A stretch of 64,000 nucleotides of DNA from Terribium retamae (lineage in GTDB: Bacteria > Pseudomonadota > Alphaproteobacteria > Rhizobiales > Rhizobiaceae): the NCBI RefSeq assembly GCF_022347545.1, contig NZ_JAKREW010000011.1, positions 62,001 through 126,000 of the forward strand. The letters are read 5' to 3'. The notes beneath the pieces are model-generated. The model had not been told where the DNA came from, did no database searches, and was given only the letters and a program-made list of their open reading frames with translations. This document shows, piece after piece, positions 4,469 to 13,924 of the stretch (within the stretch, counting starts at the first letter, position 1; each line of letters begins with the position of its first letter). Position numbers and translations under genes: made by a program.

Positions 4469-6364
4469 ATGAACGAGTCGACAGTGCGGCTCGCACTTTT
4501 GATCATGGCGGTTCTTGGGCTCGTGGTCGGACTTGCCATCTGGTCGGCCGGGCAAGGCCCGGTTCAGCCAACGACAATCTGGGCAATAGCTACCCTGCCC
4601 GTCGTTATCATGCTGGTTGTATCGATCCTGCGTGATTTCTTGATTGGGCGCATGGGCGTCGATGCGATAGCGCTCGTGTCGATGTCGGCGGGACTGCTTC
4701 TTGGGCAGCCGCTGGCAGCCATAGTCGTTGCCATCATGTATGCCGGTGGTACCGTACTGGAGGATTTTGCGCGCGGCCGCGCAGAACGAAGCCTGCAGGC
4801 CTTGGTCGACCGCGCTCCACGCATAGCGCATAAAAAATCGACCACCGGCACAGAAACGATTTCCGCCGATCAAGTCGCCATCGGTGACGAGCTGTTGGTA
4901 CGCGCCGGCGAATTGCTTCCGGTCGACGGAATACTGATCGACCCCTCAGCCTTACTCGATGAATCCGCTGTCACCGGAGAACCGCTGCCGGTACGGCGCA
5001 TTGCCTCGGATCCTCTGCACAGCGGCACCGTCAATGCCGGAGAGACCTTTTCGATGCGCGCCTCGGCGACGGTCGGGGAAAGCACCTATGCGGCGATCAT
5101 GCGTATGGTGACGGCTGCGCAGACCGCCAAGGCTCCCTTCATTCGCATCGCGGACCGACTCGCCCTGCTGCTGCTTCCACTCACTTTGCTGGTGGCCGCG
5201 CTTGCCTGGTATCTTTCCAATGATCCGATCCGGGCCTTGGCGGTCCTGGTGGTGGCAACGCCCTGCCCGCTGATCCTGGCAGCCCCAGTTGCATTTATCG
5301 GTGGCGTGTCCCGTGCCGCACATGTTGGTATTTTGATGAAGGGCAGCACCGCTCTGGAGGCGCTTGCCAGGATAAGGACCGCCATCTTCGACAAGACAGG
5401 CACATTGACGACTGGTGGCGCAGAGCTCATCGAGATCGACCTTGCCCCTCATCAGCGAGCTGACGAGCTTCTGCGGCTGTTGGCTTCACTTGAGCAAGCC
5501 TCGCATCATGTGCTGGCGAGCTCTATCGTCCAGCTCGCCCGCAGGAAAGGCCTTGTGCTTTGCCAACCGCATCAGGTTCGCGAACATCGTGGGGAAGGTC
5601 TTGAAGGGCAAGTCGACGGCACGACAGTGTCCGCGGGTTCACGGCCGCTTGTCTTGGCAGACAAACCGCTGCCGTATTGGGCCCAGGACGGCGAAGAGCG
5701 GCATCGGGACGCGGCGGTACTCAGGGTCTTCTTGGCCTTGAATGGCGAACTTGTCGGTATCTTCACGTTCGCAGACACGCTCCGGGCTGATGTTCCCGAC
5801 ACGCTCGTTGCGTTGCGGACCTGTGGTGTGAACAGGATCATGCTGCTTACTGGAGATGACGACACAGCCGCCAACAAGGTCGCAGCCTCGCTCGGTCTCG
5901 ATGCCACAATCTCCAAGGCCACGCCTGCAGACAAGGTCAGAACGGTTGAGGTAGAAAAGCGCGCGGCGCCGACAATGATGATCGGCGACGGCATTAACGA
6001 TGCCCCCGCCCTCGCCGCTGCCGATGTCGGCATCGCCCTGGCGTCTCGGGGTGGAACCATTTCATCCGAGGCGGCCGATGTCGTCATTCTCACCGACAGG
6101 GTGCAGCCAGTGGCAGAAGCACTGCTGATTGCCAAGCATACGCGGACGATCGCGCTTCAGAGCATCACCGTGGGGCTGGCCCTATCCGGCGCAGCAATGA
6201 TCTTTGCTGCCTTGGGCATGATCACACCAGTCGCCGGCGCATTGCTCCAGGAGGGTATTGATGTTGCTGTGATACTCAATGCATTGCGCACGCTGGGTGG
6301 GACAGATGTAAGTGCATCTCGGCAAAAGCGTGCAATCAAGGCTGCAGAACCGCAGCCCCGTTGA
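4469..6364 (+). CDS. P1B-type heavy-metal translocating ATPase with TPC motif
   Basis: A 631-residue inner-membrane pump with no N-terminal HMA domain; the protein starts directly with a membrane helix. It has the actuator TGE loop (VTGEPLP), a membrane motif T264-P265-C266 in place of the usual CPC, the phosphorylated D308 in DKTGTLT, and the hinge GDGIND near residue 508. The HP locus reads HHVLA instead of the usual HPLA. TPC motifs occur in the less-studied P1B-5-like pumps linked to Ni/Fe, so copper specificity is unlikely; the metal is undetermined. It follows DUF302 in a FixK-box operon. Its last 29 bp overlap the convergent alcohol dehydrogenase gene. Confidence 0.9.
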   Translation: MNESTVRLALLIMAVLGLVVGLAIWSAGQGPVQPTTIWAIATLPVVIMLVVSILRDFLIGRMGVDAIALVSMSAGLLLGQPLAAIVVAIMYAGGTVLEDFARGRAERSLQALVDRAPRIAHKKSTTGTETISADQVAIGDELLVRAGELLPVDGILIDPSALLDESAVTGEPLPVRRIASDPLHSGTVNAGETFSMRASATVGESTYAAIMRMVTAAQTAKAPFIRIADRLALLLLPLTLLVAALAWYLSNDPIRALAVLVVATPCPLILAAPVAFIGGVSRAAHVGILMKGSTALEALARIRTAIFDKTGTLTTGGAELIEIDLAPHQRADELLRLLASLEQASHHVLASSIVQLARRKGLVLCQPHQVREHRGEGLEGQVDGTTVSAGSRPLVLADKPLPYWAQDGEERHRDAAVLRVFLALNGELVGIFTFADTLRADVPDTLVALRTCGVNRIMLLTGDDDTAANKVAASLGLDATISKATPADKVRTVEVEKRAAPTMMIGDGINDAPALAAADVGIALASRGGTISSEAADVVILTDRVQPVAEALLIAKHTRTIALQSITVGLALSGAAMIFAALGMITPVAGALLQEGIDVAVILNALRTLGGTDVSASRQKRAIKAAEPQPR

Positions 6365-7316
6365 GCCTGCCCATGCGCAGGTCATCAAGTGCCTGGTTCG
6401 CGTCTTCAAGTCGATAGGTTGTGGTGTAGGTGTTTACTCCCGCCTGTTGCGCAATTGGGAAGAACTCCCTCGCATCGCTACGCGTCAGATTCGCCACCGA
6501 AAGCACCTCTCTTTCCTGCCAAAGCAGTTCGTAAGGCATTGATGGGATATCGCTCATATGAATGCCACCGCAAACCACGCGCCCGCCTTTGCGCACTGCC
6601 CGCAACGCCGCAGGTACCAATTCGCCGACAGGGGCGAAGATAATCGCGGTATCGAGCTCAACTGGCGGCAACTCCTCGGATGTGCCTGCCCATTCCGCGC
6701 CCAATGAACGTGCAAATTCTTGCGCTTGGTGGTCGCCAGCACGTGTAAAGGCGAAAATCCTGCGCCGCTGCCAAAGCGCCACCTGCGTGATGATGTGCGC
6801 AGCCGCCCCGAAGCCGTAGAGCCCGAGGCGCTGCCCGTCGCCTGCCTTCTTCAGGCAGCGCCAACCGATCAGACCTGCGCATAGCAGCGGCGCCAGCGCC
6901 ACAGGATCTGGGGCATCGAGATCGAAGGCGAAGGCTGCGTCGGCTACGACGTGACTGGCAAAACCGCCATCGCGCGTGTAGCCGGTGAACAGCGGTTGGT
7001 CACAAAGATTCTCCGCCTCGTGTGTGCAGTAGCTGCAACGCCCGCATGTGTGCCCAAGCCAAGGGATGCCGACACGCCGACCGAGACGGCCCGTGCTTAC
7101 CCCCTGGCCGACGAGGTCTACAATTCCGACGATTTCGTGCCCAGGAACCAAGGGCACCGTCGGATTGGGAAGGTCGCCGTCGACGACATGCAGATCGGTC
7201 CGGCAGATCGCGCATGCTTCAACCCTCACCCTGATTTCGCCTGGCCCTGGGACCGGATCAGGGCGATTGACGAGAACCAGCGGCGTACGAGGCCTGTCCA
7301 ATACCATCGCCTTCAT
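6336..7316 (-). CDS. Zinc-dependent alcohol dehydrogenase
   Basis: A 326-residue medium-chain dehydrogenase/reductase. The catalytic zinc ligands are in CAICRTDLH and the PGHE motif; the structural zinc has four cysteines (CGRCSYCTHEAENLC). The Rossmann loop LGLYGFGAAAH is present though slightly degenerate. It oxidises alcohols or, more likely under oxygen limitation, reduces aldehydes to regenerate NAD+. The start ATG at 7316 lies 4 bp after the stop codon of a small membrane ORF, suggesting translational coupling, and both are preceded by a FixK box at 7539. The natural substrate is not inferable. Confidence 0.92.
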   Translation of the reverse strand: MKAMVLDRPRTPLVLVNRPDPVPGPGEIRVRVEACAICRTDLHVVDGDLPNPTVPLVPGHEIVGIVDLVGQGVSTGRLGRRVGIPWLGHTCGRCSYCTHEAENLCDQPLFTGYTRDGGFASHVVADAAFAFDLDAPDPVALAPLLCAGLIGWRCLKKAGDGQRLGLYGFGAAAHIITQVALWQRRRIFAFTRAGDHQAQEFARSLGAEWAGTSEELPPVELDTAIIFAPVGELVPAALRAVRKGGRVVCGGIHMSDIPSMPYELLWQEREVLSVANLTRSDAREFFPIAQQAGVNTYTTTYRLEDANQALDDLRMGRLNGAAVLQP

Positions 7317-7320
7317 GGAT

Positions 7321-7482
7321 CTAGCGCCGGCGCTGGGCTTTCACGCGTTGAGGCACAGCTCGACGTCCAGATGCCGGACGATGTCGCCTATCCCCATCTT
7401 TCGTTTCGAAATAGATCGCCGCGCCGGCGAGATAGGCAAGACCCAGCAGTGCAGCGTAGACGGAGATGAGGCCAGCGGACAT
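7321..7482 (-). CDS. Small single-span membrane protein (53 aa), unrecognised
   Basis: A 54-codon frame too short for usual gene calling. The ATG at 7482 has an excellent ribosome-binding site (AAAGGAG, about 7 bases upstream). The product begins MSAGLISVYAALLGLAYLA, one strongly hydrophobic helix, followed by a charged, Arg-rich tail. The TAG stop is 4 bp before the alcohol dehydrogenase start, and a perfect FixK box is centred about 63 bp upstream of the ATG, the spacing expected for a FixK-activated promoter. I do not recognise the family. It may anchor or help a membrane enzyme, but that is speculation. Coding status is supported by SD, coupling and promoter position, not by a known homologue. 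Confidence 0.6.
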   Translation of the reverse strand: MSAGLISVYAALLGLAYLAGAAIYFETKDGDRRHRPASGRRAVPQRVKAQRRR

Positions 7483-7538
7483 GATCAGGCTCCTTTGTCA
7501 GACCTGGCTCATGATTGCAGCGCCGGGTGGCACACGCC

Positions 7539-7552
7539 TTGATCATCGTCAA
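7539..7552. promoter_or_regulatory. FixK/FNR box 2 (TTGATCATCGTCAA)
   Basis: Perfect TTGA-N6-TCAA dyad between the small ORF/alcohol dehydrogenase pair and the divergent Crp/Fnr regulator gene. It is centred about 63 bp upstream of the small ORF and about 147 bp upstream of the regulator, so the regulator may control its own gene. Confidence 0.8.
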
Positions 7553-7692: not shown

Positions 7693-8340
7693 ATGTACGC
7701 ACAAACTTCCATTCAGATTGAACTGCCGTCAGTGTTTCCCCGGCAAGCGCCAACGGCATCCCCCGAGGGATCAGTGGCTCACCCGGTGAGTTTCTTTTCC
7801 CCAGGCTCGGAAATCTATGCCCAGGGCGAAAAAGCCAAGGCTGTTTATCAAGTCGAGTTCGGTGCTGTCCGTATTTACAGGCTCCTCGCTGATGGACGCA
7901 GGCAAATCAGCGCTTTTCATTTTGCAGGCGAAACCTTCGGCTTTGAAGGCGACATTACACATCATTTCTTCGCCGAGGCGATCAACTCGACCGGGGTGCG
8001 CGTTTTCCGTGTCGGTTCGGGGACAGACCTGTCCCACCACCTACTGCCTCTCGCGCTCAAGGGACTGACTAGGGCGCAAGAACATCTGCTCGTGCTGGGT
8101 CGTCAAAATGCAATCGAACGCGTTGCGGCCTTCCTGCTCGACATGGCGGAACGCCAGGGAGATTTGCGCCAGATAGACTTGCCGATGTCCCGCATCGACA
8201 TCGGGGACTATCTTGGCCTTACCATCGAAACCGTTTCGCGCGTCTTCAGCCGCCTGAAGGAAAAGGGCGTCATCCGCCTCCATAGCCTCCGCCGCATCGA
8301 GGTGCTCAAGCGGGATGCATTGCGCGCCATGGGCGAATGA
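7693..8340 (+). CDS. Crp/Fnr-family transcriptional regulator, FixK-like
   Basis: A 215-residue regulator with an N-terminal cyclic-nucleotide-binding-like beta-barrel (about 25-125), a dimerisation helix (about 130-155) and a C-terminal winged helix-turn-helix. The recognition helix reads ETVSRV, giving the E179-S182-R183 triad that reads TTGA/TCAA half-sites in FNR and FixK. The protein contains no cysteine, so it cannot carry the oxygen-sensing 4Fe-4S cluster of FNR; it behaves like FixK, whose oxygen signal comes from elsewhere. It is the obvious candidate to bind the eight TTGA-N6-TCAA boxes of this island, including the one upstream of its own gene. The start at 7693 has a weak SD, and a later start is possible. 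Confidence 0.9.
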   Translation: MYAQTSIQIELPSVFPRQAPTASPEGSVAHPVSFFSPGSEIYAQGEKAKAVYQVEFGAVRIYRLLADGRRQISAFHFAGETFGFEGDITHHFFAEAINSTGVRVFRVGSGTDLSHHLLPLALKGLTRAQEHLLVLGRQNAIERVAAFLLDMAERQGDLRQIDLPMSRIDIGDYLGLTIETVSRVFSRLKEKGVIRLHSLRRIEVLKRDALRAMGE

Positions 8341-8383: not shown

Positions 8384-8902
8384 ATGAAGACCACGCTGAC
8401 CACTCACACCGGATTTCGCTTTGAGGTCCGCCGCGCACGTCCGGCTGATGAACCGATCGTGGCCGAGTTCTTCAAGCATGTTACCCCCGAGGATCTCCGT
8501 TTCCGCTTCCTGGGCACGATGAAGGAAGTATCTCATGAGCGGTTGGTGGCGATGACCCGCTCCGATGATCCGAGTATTCACAACTTCCTCGCATTCTCCG
8601 CCGACGGCATGCTGATCGCAGTGGCCACGCTCGCCAGCGATGAGACAGGGAAGCGTGGTGAGGTCGCGATCTGCATTCGCCAGGACCGCAAGCATCTCGG
8701 CGTCGGCTGGGAGTTCCTGCGCCATATCGCACGCTTTGCCCAGGAGCACGGCCTCGAAGCGCTACAGTCGATTGAAGACCGTGAGAACCACGCCGCAATC
8801 GAACTTGAGCGTGACATGGGCTTTACCGTTTCGACCGCTCCCGACGATCCGACGCTCGTCGTGGTCGAACGCAAATTGGGCACGACTGCCTTGCCAACTT
8901 AA
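8384..8902 (+). CDS. Stand-alone GNAT acetyltransferase, paralogue of the Pat C-terminal domain
   Basis: A 172-residue GNAT protein. The start at 8384 is chosen because of the GGAGAAAG site 4-11 bases upstream and because it gives a family-typical N-terminus. It aligns by eye along its length with the GNAT domain of the acyl-CoA synthetase at 1199-3925: RPAD, then LRFRFL (LRLRFL in the fusion), then GVGWEFL (GHGLGWELL in the fusion), then an ENH loop. It lies 43 bp after the FixK-like regulator gene and is probably cotranscribed. It may acetylate proteins, perhaps metabolic enzymes, without the ligand-sensing module of the fusion protein. The acceptor is unknown. Confidence 0.85.
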   Translation: MKTTLTTHTGFRFEVRRARPADEPIVAEFFKHVTPEDLRFRFLGTMKEVSHERLVAMTRSDDPSIHNFLAFSADGMLIAVATLASDETGKRGEVAICIRQDRKHLGVGWEFLRHIARFAQEHGLEALQSIEDRENHAAIELERDMGFTVSTAPDDPTLVVVERKLGTTALPT

Positions 8903-9083: not shown

Positions 9084-9120
9084 ATCGTTTCGCGTTTTGG
9101 TAAAAAACGGAAACGCTCTA
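9084..9120. repeat. Intergenic palindromic repeat (copy 1) at the nitroreductase stop
   Basis: On the minus strand the TAG stop of the nitroreductase gene runs into AGCGTTTCCGTTT, followed by an imperfect complementary arm (GCGAAACGAT). A related element (TAG-CGCGTTTCCGTTT) sits in the same position after uxaC near 46910-46937. It is probably a dispersed rhizobial repeat that forms a 3' hairpin. The rest of the 215-bp gap from 8903 holds nothing I can name. Confidence 0.5.
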
Positions 9121-10257
9121 GGCATCGGTTGGGATCAGAACCGCTTCCACTTGCCTGCGCGGTGAATAGGGAAGCACTGGGCCGTAGCCGAAACGCATCA
9201 CGATATCTGGGCGGCGGCCGGACATTCCGACTAGGCTTGCTAGCTGCGCTCTGAGGGCCGGGACTTCGATCGGTTGGTTGACAAAGGCGTGTTTCAGGCC
9301 GAGGGCGGTCGCCTGCAGGGCGAAGCGCTGGCAGGCGCGACCGGCACGCACCCAATGCTCCTTGTCGTCGTGCTCTGACACGAAGATCGCGATCCCAGCG
9401 GACGAGCGAAGCTGCCGAGCGTATTTGTCGTTTTCCTTCGCGGCATCGAAGAAGAAATCAAACAGGAGGCCGCCGAGCCAAGGCGGCGCGGAGGGGTTGC
9501 CGCTCGCCGCGCTGAACAGACCATCACCAGTTTCAAGCGCCTGGCGCGGATTGAAGCGCAGCCAATGTTTCAGCTCGCGCTCGAACGCCGGATCCGCCAT
9601 CTGCATTGTGTTTCCCGAAACGACAAAATCAAGGACTCGTTCGATCTCCTGACCATCGGTTATAAGGTGCAGGTCGACGCCAGGAATGCAGCTTGCGGCG
9701 GCTAGAAGTACCAGATCGGCGGCAGTGACGGATCGTCCGTCATATTCGGCGCGGGTTGACTGACGCTCGGGGATCGCCGCGAACAGAACCGAGCGTTCGG
9801 CTGGCCCGGCGCCGAACTCGAGAACCACAGAGCCGTCACCACTTGCATCGAACCGCGGTTCGCCGCGCCAGCCCTGCTCTGCCGCAGCAATGGCCAGGTT
9901 CTCGGCAGCGCAGCCTAAGCTGGCGAACAGGTGGTGATCATCGGGATCGACCACAGGCGTACGGCGGGTGAAATCCGGAAGGATTGTGATGCGGCCTTGC
10001 CCGGTACGGAAGCGCCAAGGCTGGGTATTGTGGCCATTTGCCGCCAGCGTTGCGTAGCGAATGAGGTCTATGAGGGCCGGAGGTTGAGCGAGCTTTGCCC
10101 GCGTGGCCGCCACAGCAGTTGCGTAGCCCTCCATCGAGCCTATACGCGAGAAGCTAAAGGCTGCGGCGCTCGCCAGCGCCAGCGCACTCCCGCCAACAAT
10201 CACCCGCCGCCTGTTCACAGCCCGCGCCCTCACTTGATAAGCAACAAGGTACCGCAT
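9118..10257 (-). CDS. Acg-type nitroreductase-family protein with Tat-like signal
   Basis: A 379-residue protein. The N-terminus has a twin-arginine motif (NRRRVIVGG) followed by a hydrophobic stretch, suggesting Tat export or membrane anchoring. The body is an FMN-nitroreductase fold of the Acg class, with the NTQPWRF segment typical of FMN binding near residue 75. Acg proteins of mycobacteria are dormancy-regulon members proposed to sequester or use flavin. It follows mgtA in the same direction after a 118-bp gap, with two one-mismatch FixK-like sites (10234-10247 and 10273-10286) close to the start. The start may be the ATG at 10257 or a GTG at 10233; neither has a convincing SD. Confidence 0.8.
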   Translation of the reverse strand: MRYLVAYQVRARAVNRRRVIVGGSALALASAAAFSFSRIGSMEGYATAVAATRAKLAQPPALIDLIRYATLAANGHNTQPWRFRTGQGRITILPDFTRRTPVVDPDDHHLFASLGCAAENLAIAAAEQGWRGEPRFDASGDGSVVLEFGAGPAERSVLFAAIPERQSTRAEYDGRSVTAADLVLLAAASCIPGVDLHLITDGQEIERVLDFVVSGNTMQMADPAFERELKHWLRFNPRQALETGDGLFSAASGNPSAPPWLGGLLFDFFFDAAKENDKYARQLRSSAGIAIFVSEHDDKEHWVRAGRACQRFALQATALGLKHAFVNQPIEVPALRAQLASLVGMSGRRPDIVMRFGYGPVLPYSPRRQVEAVLIPTDA

Positions 10258-13050: not shown

Positions 13051-13863
13051 TCAGTTCGACAAGAGGCGATTGATGCCACGTTCGGCCATCAACGTGCGGG
13101 TGATCCCCCCAAAGGCCCATTCCCTCAGCCGACTGTGGCCGTAAGCTCCAGAGACGATCAAATCGGCGCCGATCATGTGCGCGAATTCCACCAACTGATG
13201 GCCGCCAGGCTCGCCGAACAGCACCTCCGTTCGAGCCGGAACCCCTTGGCTCTTAAGCCACAGCAATATTTCGGCAAGGCTGCTGCGCACATCGGGGCCG
13301 GCCTCGCCTGCCATGGTCGCAACGACAACCTCCTTGGCCCTGATTAGAAATGGCAGCGCGTCGCTCACAGCACGTCTGGCTTCGCGGCTGTCTTTCCAGG
13401 CGACAAGGACAGTCTTGCCGACGAGGTGTTCGGCATTGTTTGCTGCCAACAGGACCGGCCGACCGGCTCCCAGCACCAAGCTGCCAATATCAAGTGCCCG
13501 AAAGGCATCATCCCCTCGATCGTGACCTGTCACAAGAAGGTCCGCCGCCCGGGCTACGGTAATGAGGGCGCTTGTCGGGGTGTGGATATGTTGCATCCAT
13601 CGACCTCCGATCGAGGCGGGAACAAGCTCTTCGAAGGCATCGCGCAACTCGGCCAAGTGCTTCTCAAGCTCCCTGCGCCGAGTCTCCATGATATCGCCTT
13701 CGTAGACGAGGCCCTTTTCGGTTACCACCAAGGGAGGGACATCTGCGGCGGCAAAGCCGATCAGTTGCGCCCCGAAATGCACTGCCAGTGCTGACGCGAG
13801 CTTCACGATCGGTATGGGATCCACGTCAACGGCCAAATTGACGATGACTGTTTTGTAGGACAC
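13051..13863 (-). CDS. Universal stress protein, tandem Usp domains (copy 1)
   Basis: A 270-residue cytoplasmic protein with two Usp folds. The C-terminal one keeps the family-like GAYGHSRLREW motif near the end. The GTG at 13863 is chosen because it gives the N-terminus VSYKTVIVNL, which matches MDYKTILVNL of the second copy at 19362-20183, and has GAGG about 8 bases upstream. The copies share the VAWKDTREARRAV-like segment and the whole C-terminal block, so they are paralogues. A perfect FixK box is centred about 68 bp upstream, and mgtA follows. Usp proteins of this class promote survival under energy limitation; the ligand is unknown. Confidence 0.88.
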   Translation of the reverse strand: MSYKTVIVNLAVDVDPIPIVKLASALAVHFGAQLIGFAAADVPPLVVTEKGLVYEGDIMETRRRELEKHLAELRDAFEELVPASIGGRWMQHIHTPTSALITVARAADLLVTGHDRGDDAFRALDIGSLVLGAGRPVLLAANNAEHLVGKTVLVAWKDSREARRAVSDALPFLIRAKEVVVATMAGEAGPDVRSSLAEILLWLKSQGVPARTEVLFGEPGGHQLVEFAHMIGADLIVSGAYGHSRLREWAFGGITRTLMAERGINRLLSN

Positions 13864-13924
13864 ACCGACACCTCGCTGGGGATGATGGAATGCTTCCAAT
13901 CACACGCTTCAAGCATGCTGCGCA

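Follow-up and report, generated by a model that had tools for sequence, protein, structure and literature searches.

A probable low-oxygen small membrane protein family of Mesorhizobium, encoded behind a FixK-type box and ahead of changing partner genes

Results and discussion

Features of the locus

The window, i.e. the whole stretch of 64,000 nucleotides that was analysed, carries on its minus strand a small ORF of 53 codons plus stop, read from the ATG at 7482 to the TAG that ends at 7321, between a box of the FNR/FixK type and the gene for an alcohol dehydrogenase (ADH) that scores 338 bits against the TIGR02822 cut-off of 283.5 (Table 1). The initial annotation had placed an overlooked 53-residue membrane ORF at this position, which proved right, but it had left the strand unstated: the product of the minus strand is MSAGLISVYAALLGLAYLAGAAIYFETKDGDRRHRPASGRRAVPQRVKAQRRR, and the plus-strand translation of 7321-7482 is a different peptide. 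The AAAGGAG Shine-Dalgarno sequence that it had named is likewise present (7496-7490), with a spacing of 7 nt to the ATG. Longer ORFs in other frames overlap the small ORF, for example those at 6951-7469 and 7048-7542 of the plus strand.

Table 1. Coordinates of the genes and predicted signals around the small ORF in the window
Feature	Positions	Strand	Basis or remark
Zinc-binding alcohol dehydrogenase family protein gene (TIGR02822)	6336..7316	minus	downstream gene
4-nt gap TAG ATCC ATG, small-ORF stop to ADH start; no ADH ribosome site	7317..7320	minus	sequence
Small ORF including stop TAG	7321..7482	minus	gene for a predicted 53-aa single-pass membrane protein
Shine-Dalgarno AAAGGAG of the small ORF	7490..7496	minus	sequence; anti-SD duplex -8.1 kcal/mol
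Predicted transcription start	7504..7504	minus	inferred from box/-10 spacing, 41.5 bp from box centre
Predicted -10 element AATCAT	7511..7516	minus	RATNWT consensus at fixed offset
FNR/FixK-type box TTGATCATCGTCAA (minus-strand reading TTGACGATGATCAA)	7539..7552		sequence; present upstream of all copies
Gene for divergent CRP/FNR-family regulator, FixK-like, no cysteine	7693..8340	plus	FixK model 197 bits
GNAT acetyltransferase gene, beyond the regulator	8384..8902	plus	start chosen by script

As judged from its sequence, the protein consists of one helix of about 20 hydrophobic residues (segment LISVYAALLGLAYLAGAAIYF) with a short N-terminus before it and a basic tail behind it. The best 19-residue stretch (residues 5-23) has a Kyte-Doolittle mean of 2.04 and is followed by a net charge of +8, which bears out the single helix and basic tail noted initially; across the 44 family copies of at least 40 residues the best stretch averages 2.0, with a minimum of 1.43. 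With one predicted transmembrane helix and fewer than 70 residues it has the make-up of a single-pass small membrane protein, and its charge distribution points to an N-out/C-in orientation. An AlphaFold2 model of the window protein has a helix at residues 3-30 and 16 residues with pLDDT of at least 90, and a loose basic tail with pLDDT of about 50-54 (mean of the model 70.7).

Distribution and coding potential of the family

A profile search (E <= 0.001) recovered homologues in 31 of 146 Mesorhizobium genomes and no family match in the other 115. The 31 carriers have 49 copies: 18 genomes possess one ADH-linked and one phasin-linked copy, 8 an ADH-linked copy only, and 5 a single copy in another arrangement. 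Order-wide (397 genomes) and family-wide (394 genomes) profile searches gave full matches in the same four genomes of this genus; the remaining three weak partial matches of the former and the two weak matches of the latter, in other genera, were rejected as chance, being partial, inside long frames or spanning stops. Because these wider searches scored the best 16 first-look candidates per genome and the genus search the best 44, distant members may have escaped detection, and the true number of carriers could exceed 31 of 146. Within the limits of the order- and family-wide searches, the family is confined to Mesorhizobium, with no convincing member outside it; a family profile search of the collection of named genomes likewise gave 11 loci, all from Mesorhizobium. 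Exact peptide patterns of the small ORF found no relative among the genome contigs, and plasmid records held no match to any family protein at E <= 1. Twenty-one family members matched no Pfam family; two single-member matches each came from NCBIfam (E 0.046 and 0.098, neither to CcoQ) and PHROGs (E about 0.005, to unnamed families); the one match of a PDB profile search, to CD4 at E 0.44, was dismissed as chance-level. The literature covered, i.e. parts of articles outside subscription journals and supplements (including PMC4999443, PMC5082802, PMC6515984, PMC7713065 and PMC7298713), does not mention the family.

Over the first 27 codons, the small-ORF frame has a pN/pS of 0.30 in the ADH-linked copies (22 counted), 0.42 in the phasin-linked ones (18) and 0.37 in a further 4; in the five alternative frames the ratio is 0.43-1.99. 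The low values among the latter (0.43-0.65) all come from the antisense frame whose third positions are shared with the real frame, and which in the ADH-linked copies lies at 0.43, below 1. When all 44 copies are pooled, the real frame has a pN/pS of 0.50 versus 0.64-1.54 in the others, and third codon positions are the most variable (entropy 1.14 versus 0.73 and 0.63). Over 26 codons, the copy in the window's own genome (G000) differs by 8.0 synonymous and 5.0 non-synonymous changes from that of G092 and by 9.0 and 7.0 from that of G028; relative to the more distant G056 the counts are 7.5 and 13.5, and the bias is weaker. The substitution counts took in 44 of the 49 copies. Left aside were G122a, which the script had not captured, G125, with a gap of one codon, and three broken copies (G085a, G075a and G139). 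The pattern indicates purifying selection on the amino acids of the helix, a sequence that copies with different partners have in common. A GFGR motif, present in the tail of most relatives, is missing or degraded in the copies of G000, G092 and G028.

The ribosome sites of the 46 copies with the family start captured have energies of -4.0 to -9.3 kcal/mol. Disruption of the frame in relatives had been named at the outset as the observation that would tell against the ORF; it is seen in only three of 49 copies, too few to overturn it. G085 has a stop at codon 9, and the frame is lost after about 28 codons in G139 and about 22 in G075, with G085 and G075 retaining a second family copy. The homologous frames in 31 of 146 genomes, the coding pattern of substitution and the box upstream of all 49 copies together set the small ORF above chance.

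Promoter, regulator and the predicted low-oxygen island

All 49 copies of the small ORF have a TTGA-N6-TCAA box 63-80 bp upstream (46 counted by script; the remaining three at -71 in L022 of G122, at -70 in L016 of G085 and 70 bp upstream in G075), and because the copies and their leaders are related to one another these are not 49 independent events. In the window the centre of the box is 63 bp from the ATG, matching the distance of about 63 bp given in the initial annotation. In the 46 box-aligned leaders a RATNWT consensus occupies positions 36-41 from the box start, its last T being kept in 44, and the spacing from box to RATNWT is fixed while the ATG stands at varying distances from the box. 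Transcription beginning 7 nt past this consensus would start 41.5 bp from the box centre, which is the class II position of Fnr in the available part of PMC7713065. This geometry predicts a class II promoter of the FNR/FixK type with its start near 7504 and a leader of 22 nt in the window. The correctly placed FixK-type box and the conserved geometry uphold the proposal, itself a prediction, that the small ORF is the first gene of a low-oxygen transcript.

The divergent regulator encoded across the box from the small ORF has FixK as its best NCBI model, with a score of 197 bits against a cut-off of 300. Since it has no cysteine and its FixK match falls short of that cut-off, we regard it as a FixK-like protein rather than a cysteine-type, oxygen-sensing FNR. 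The regulator and acetyltransferase genes stand across the box in 23 of the 26 ADH-linked copies; in G076 and G088 no regulator lies beside the copy within 1.5 kb, their regulators being elsewhere, and the stretch from G122 is not long enough to decide.

The window's own genome contains 42 sites of TTGAYNNNNRTCAA (pattern TTGAYN4RTCAA, counted genome-wide) versus 2 for the reversed control. Seventeen of these fall within 34.5-84.9 kb of contig 22, about 50 kb around the small ORF and 0.8% of the genome. Genes of this region encode arginine deiminase, ornithine carbamoyltransferase, carbamate kinase, phosphoketolase, acetate kinase and a universal stress protein, along with additional ORFs that by eye are stress-protein-like and chaperone-like. 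Collectively, the boxes and this gene content point to a low-oxygen island as the predicted neighborhood of the small ORF. A search for the regulator (E <= 1e-50) gave matches in 30 of 31 carriers and 60 of 115 non-carriers, and arginine deiminase occurs in 25 of 31 versus 43 of 115; as both are also present in many non-carriers, membership of the small gene in the wider island is optional.

The stretch dense in FixK boxes spans positions 1-24000 of the window together with 34.5-62 kb of contig 22 (L174, L175) and includes genes for P-type ATPases; an Acg-family FMN oxidoreductase (NF047509, Rv3131-like) is encoded at 9118-10257 on the minus strand. An island with an Acg-family oxidoreductase, stress proteins and P-type ATPases presumably recalls the mycobacterial DosR gene set. 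At its edge (contig 22, 31330-37667; L174) a look at the sequence picks out response-regulator-like and sensor-like ORFs, which could be a local oxygen-sensing pair.

Changing downstream partners

Twenty-six of the 49 copies precede ADH or its remnant. In the window the stop stands 4 bp ahead of the dehydrogenase start, as initially noted (TAG 7323-7321, ATCC, ATG 7316), and this gap is shared by only one other ADH-linked copy, that of G092; among the other 24, 23 have gaps of 47-177 bp and G106 has only a dehydrogenase fragment. The ADH starts of G000 and G092 pair poorly with the ribosome (-1.7 and +0.5 kcal/mol), and ADH has a ribosome site of its own (-5.5 to -9.8 kcal/mol) in 22 of the 24 loci checked, a list that left out G028 and G106. 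Because G028, whose ADH is about as close to that of the window (91-92% identity versus 89-90% for G092), has a 75-bp gap, the short gap is probably a derived state. The arrangement implies translational coupling of the small ORF and ADH in the window's genome. The coupling originally proposed thus holds as an arrangement in the window's genome and G092, but fails as a general statement about the family, with two of 26 copies so arranged.

Twelve ADH loci of the genus are without the small ORF, namely 11 of 72-76% identity and the second ADH of G139 (81%). None has a regulator in the stretches examined, and only one of the twelve, that of G082, has a box within 700 bp (TTGATGCTGGTCAA, 200 bp upstream). 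At three loci, L132 (G106), L067 (G116) and L079 (G074), the ADH gene is fragmentary or frame-broken and the adjoining small ORF and box are intact.

The other 23 copies precede different genes, so the family is not tied to the dehydrogenase and is not an alcohol-dehydrogenase accessory. In all 18 phasin-linked copies the next gene is Phasin_2-like (just below the Pfam cut-off in the two tested), at gaps of 23-30 bp in 11 and 74 bp in one, and with a 4-bp overlap in six, so that a stop close to or overlapping the next start is not a family-wide trait. An extended tail of the small ORF gives this overlap with the phasin start in L069, L070, L072, L115, L117 and L121. Behind it come a gene that fully matches PHA synthase, in 14 of these 18 copies, and one for cytochrome c, in 17. 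The marker of the phasin-linked locus called USP has no Pfam match at 1e-5, and its name was kept on account of 42% identity to the window gene at 13051-13899, which matches Usp. Among the five remaining copies the next gene encodes a phasin in G025 and G118, cytochrome c in G125 (frames read) and a PNPOx-like protein in G110; in G025 a dehydrogenase without a small ORF lies about 9.6 kb away. In G113 (L066) the box and small ORF are followed directly by the gene for a homologue of Mll3241, the MlotiK1 channel, which suggests low-oxygen control of this channel homologue in G113.

Functional interpretation

We consider it likely that the small ORF encodes a genuine low-oxygen inner-membrane protein of Mesorhizobium with a function of its own, expressed from a FixK-type class II promoter and acting in the clade of the window as a gate for ADH. 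At low oxygen a regulator of the FixK/FNR type, perhaps the divergent one (7693-8340), would bind the box at 7539-7552 and activate a class II promoter that, by the conserved geometry, starts near 7504. As the short leader bears the strong ribosome site of the small ORF, the peptide would be made first. In the window's genome ribosomes ending at the TAG would restart 4 nt on at the ADH ATG, and the small ORF would set ADH output, because ADH has no ribosome site of its own. The peptide would act as a membrane component of the low-oxygen response and not as an ADH subunit, given that box and small ORF also stand before genes for phasin and PHA synthase, cytochrome c, a PNPOx-like protein and a K+ channel. 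Our guess is that it accompanies an energy or transport complex as an accessory peptide; the single-helix AlphaFold2 model of the protein alone points to no partner. We infer both the gate and the membrane function, and the former is the better supported of the two.

That the small ORF is only a cis-acting translated leader, whose translation opens or feeds the next gene and whose peptide does nothing, would explain its place directly behind the box in every copy, its varying partners and the coupling arrangements of G000, G092 and six phasin-linked copies. We regard this as unlikely: a leader of this kind does not account for the purifying selection on the helix amino acids of copies with different partners, and most ADH-linked copies have long gaps followed by an ADH with its own ribosome site. 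A more speculative proposal, to which we give slender odds, is a portable unit of FixK promoter and membrane-inserting leader gene, placed before unrelated low-oxygen genes of Mesorhizobium. As its leader peptide would insert during translation, the whole transcript, and with it the synthesis of whichever enzyme, phasin or channel is encoded downstream, would be held at the membrane, and re-initiation would set the downstream dose. A spurious ORF might be argued from its shortness, the longer ORFs overlapping it and the three broken copies, and is next to incredible when frame, start, ribosome site, helix and box are kept in the 46 unbroken ones.

A role as membrane anchor or subunit specific to this dehydrogenase fits the adjoining and apparently coupled ADH of the window and the ADH or remnant behind 26 copies. 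Against it stand the 23 copies before other genes, the 12 ADH loci in Mesorhizobium that have no small ORF, the intact small ORFs beside reduced or broken ADH in G106, G116 and G074, and 182 plasmid records with an ADH relative (E <= 1e-60) and no family match, which together make it very unlikely. By analogy, a small single-helix protein in a low-oxygen setting might also be a CydX-like accessory subunit of cytochrome bd. CydA is present in 26 of 31 carriers, and in G125 it lies on the same contig, about 15 kb from the small ORF (L061, G125:C4; 98362-99843). However, no CydA (E <= 1e-40) is found in five of 31 carriers (G057, G075, G106, G117 and G122, the last 79% complete) versus six of 115 non-carriers, which, with the missing Pfam matches, leaves a bd-oxidase subunit extremely improbable.

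The preferred reading, that of a low-oxygen membrane protein and local ADH gate, adds a conserved family of small proteins to the predicted low-oxygen regulon of nitrogen-fixing symbionts, in which small proteins are under-annotated. The initial reading should be widened to a family with changing partners and narrowed with regard to the 4-bp gap, to the window's genome and G092. The family offers a natural series for translational coupling, in which the same ORF precedes a gene with or without a ribosome site, and a case of one small membrane gene that keeps its promoter as its downstream partner changes. The MlotiK1 homologue ties one copy to a channel with many solved structures.

Comparison with known systems

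CydX is a small single-helix subunit of cytochrome bd from a low-oxygen setting, and the small ORF resembles it as a short single-pass protein in such a setting. Unlike CydX, the family has a long basic tail and no Pfam match, its next genes in annotated copies are not cydAB, and it does not occur only together with cydAB, as five carriers, one of them an incomplete assembly, are without CydA. CcoQ/FixQ and similar small proteins of the cbb3 oxidase have one N-terminal helix and FixK-type control, both of which the small ORF shares as predicted features; it differs in having no Pfam match and no match to CcoQ in NCBIfam at E <= 0.1.

In the available part of PMC7298713, peTrpL of Sinorhizobium meliloti is a translated leader ORF. 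The small ORF resembles leaders of this type as a short first ORF of its predicted transcript that in some copies looks coupled to the gene behind it, and differs from them, as far as that source describes them, in its conserved membrane helix and unrelated partner genes. In the low-oxygen regulons of Alphaproteobacteria, the available parts of PMC6515984 and PMC7713065 mention no homologue of the small protein; they describe, for Bradyrhizobium diazoefficiens, ADH, USP, phasin and DUF302 genes that low oxygen induces and, for Sphingopyxis, boxes centred at about -41.5. It is in these ADH, USP and phasin genes, and in the geometry of the box, that such regulons resemble the Mesorhizobium locus.
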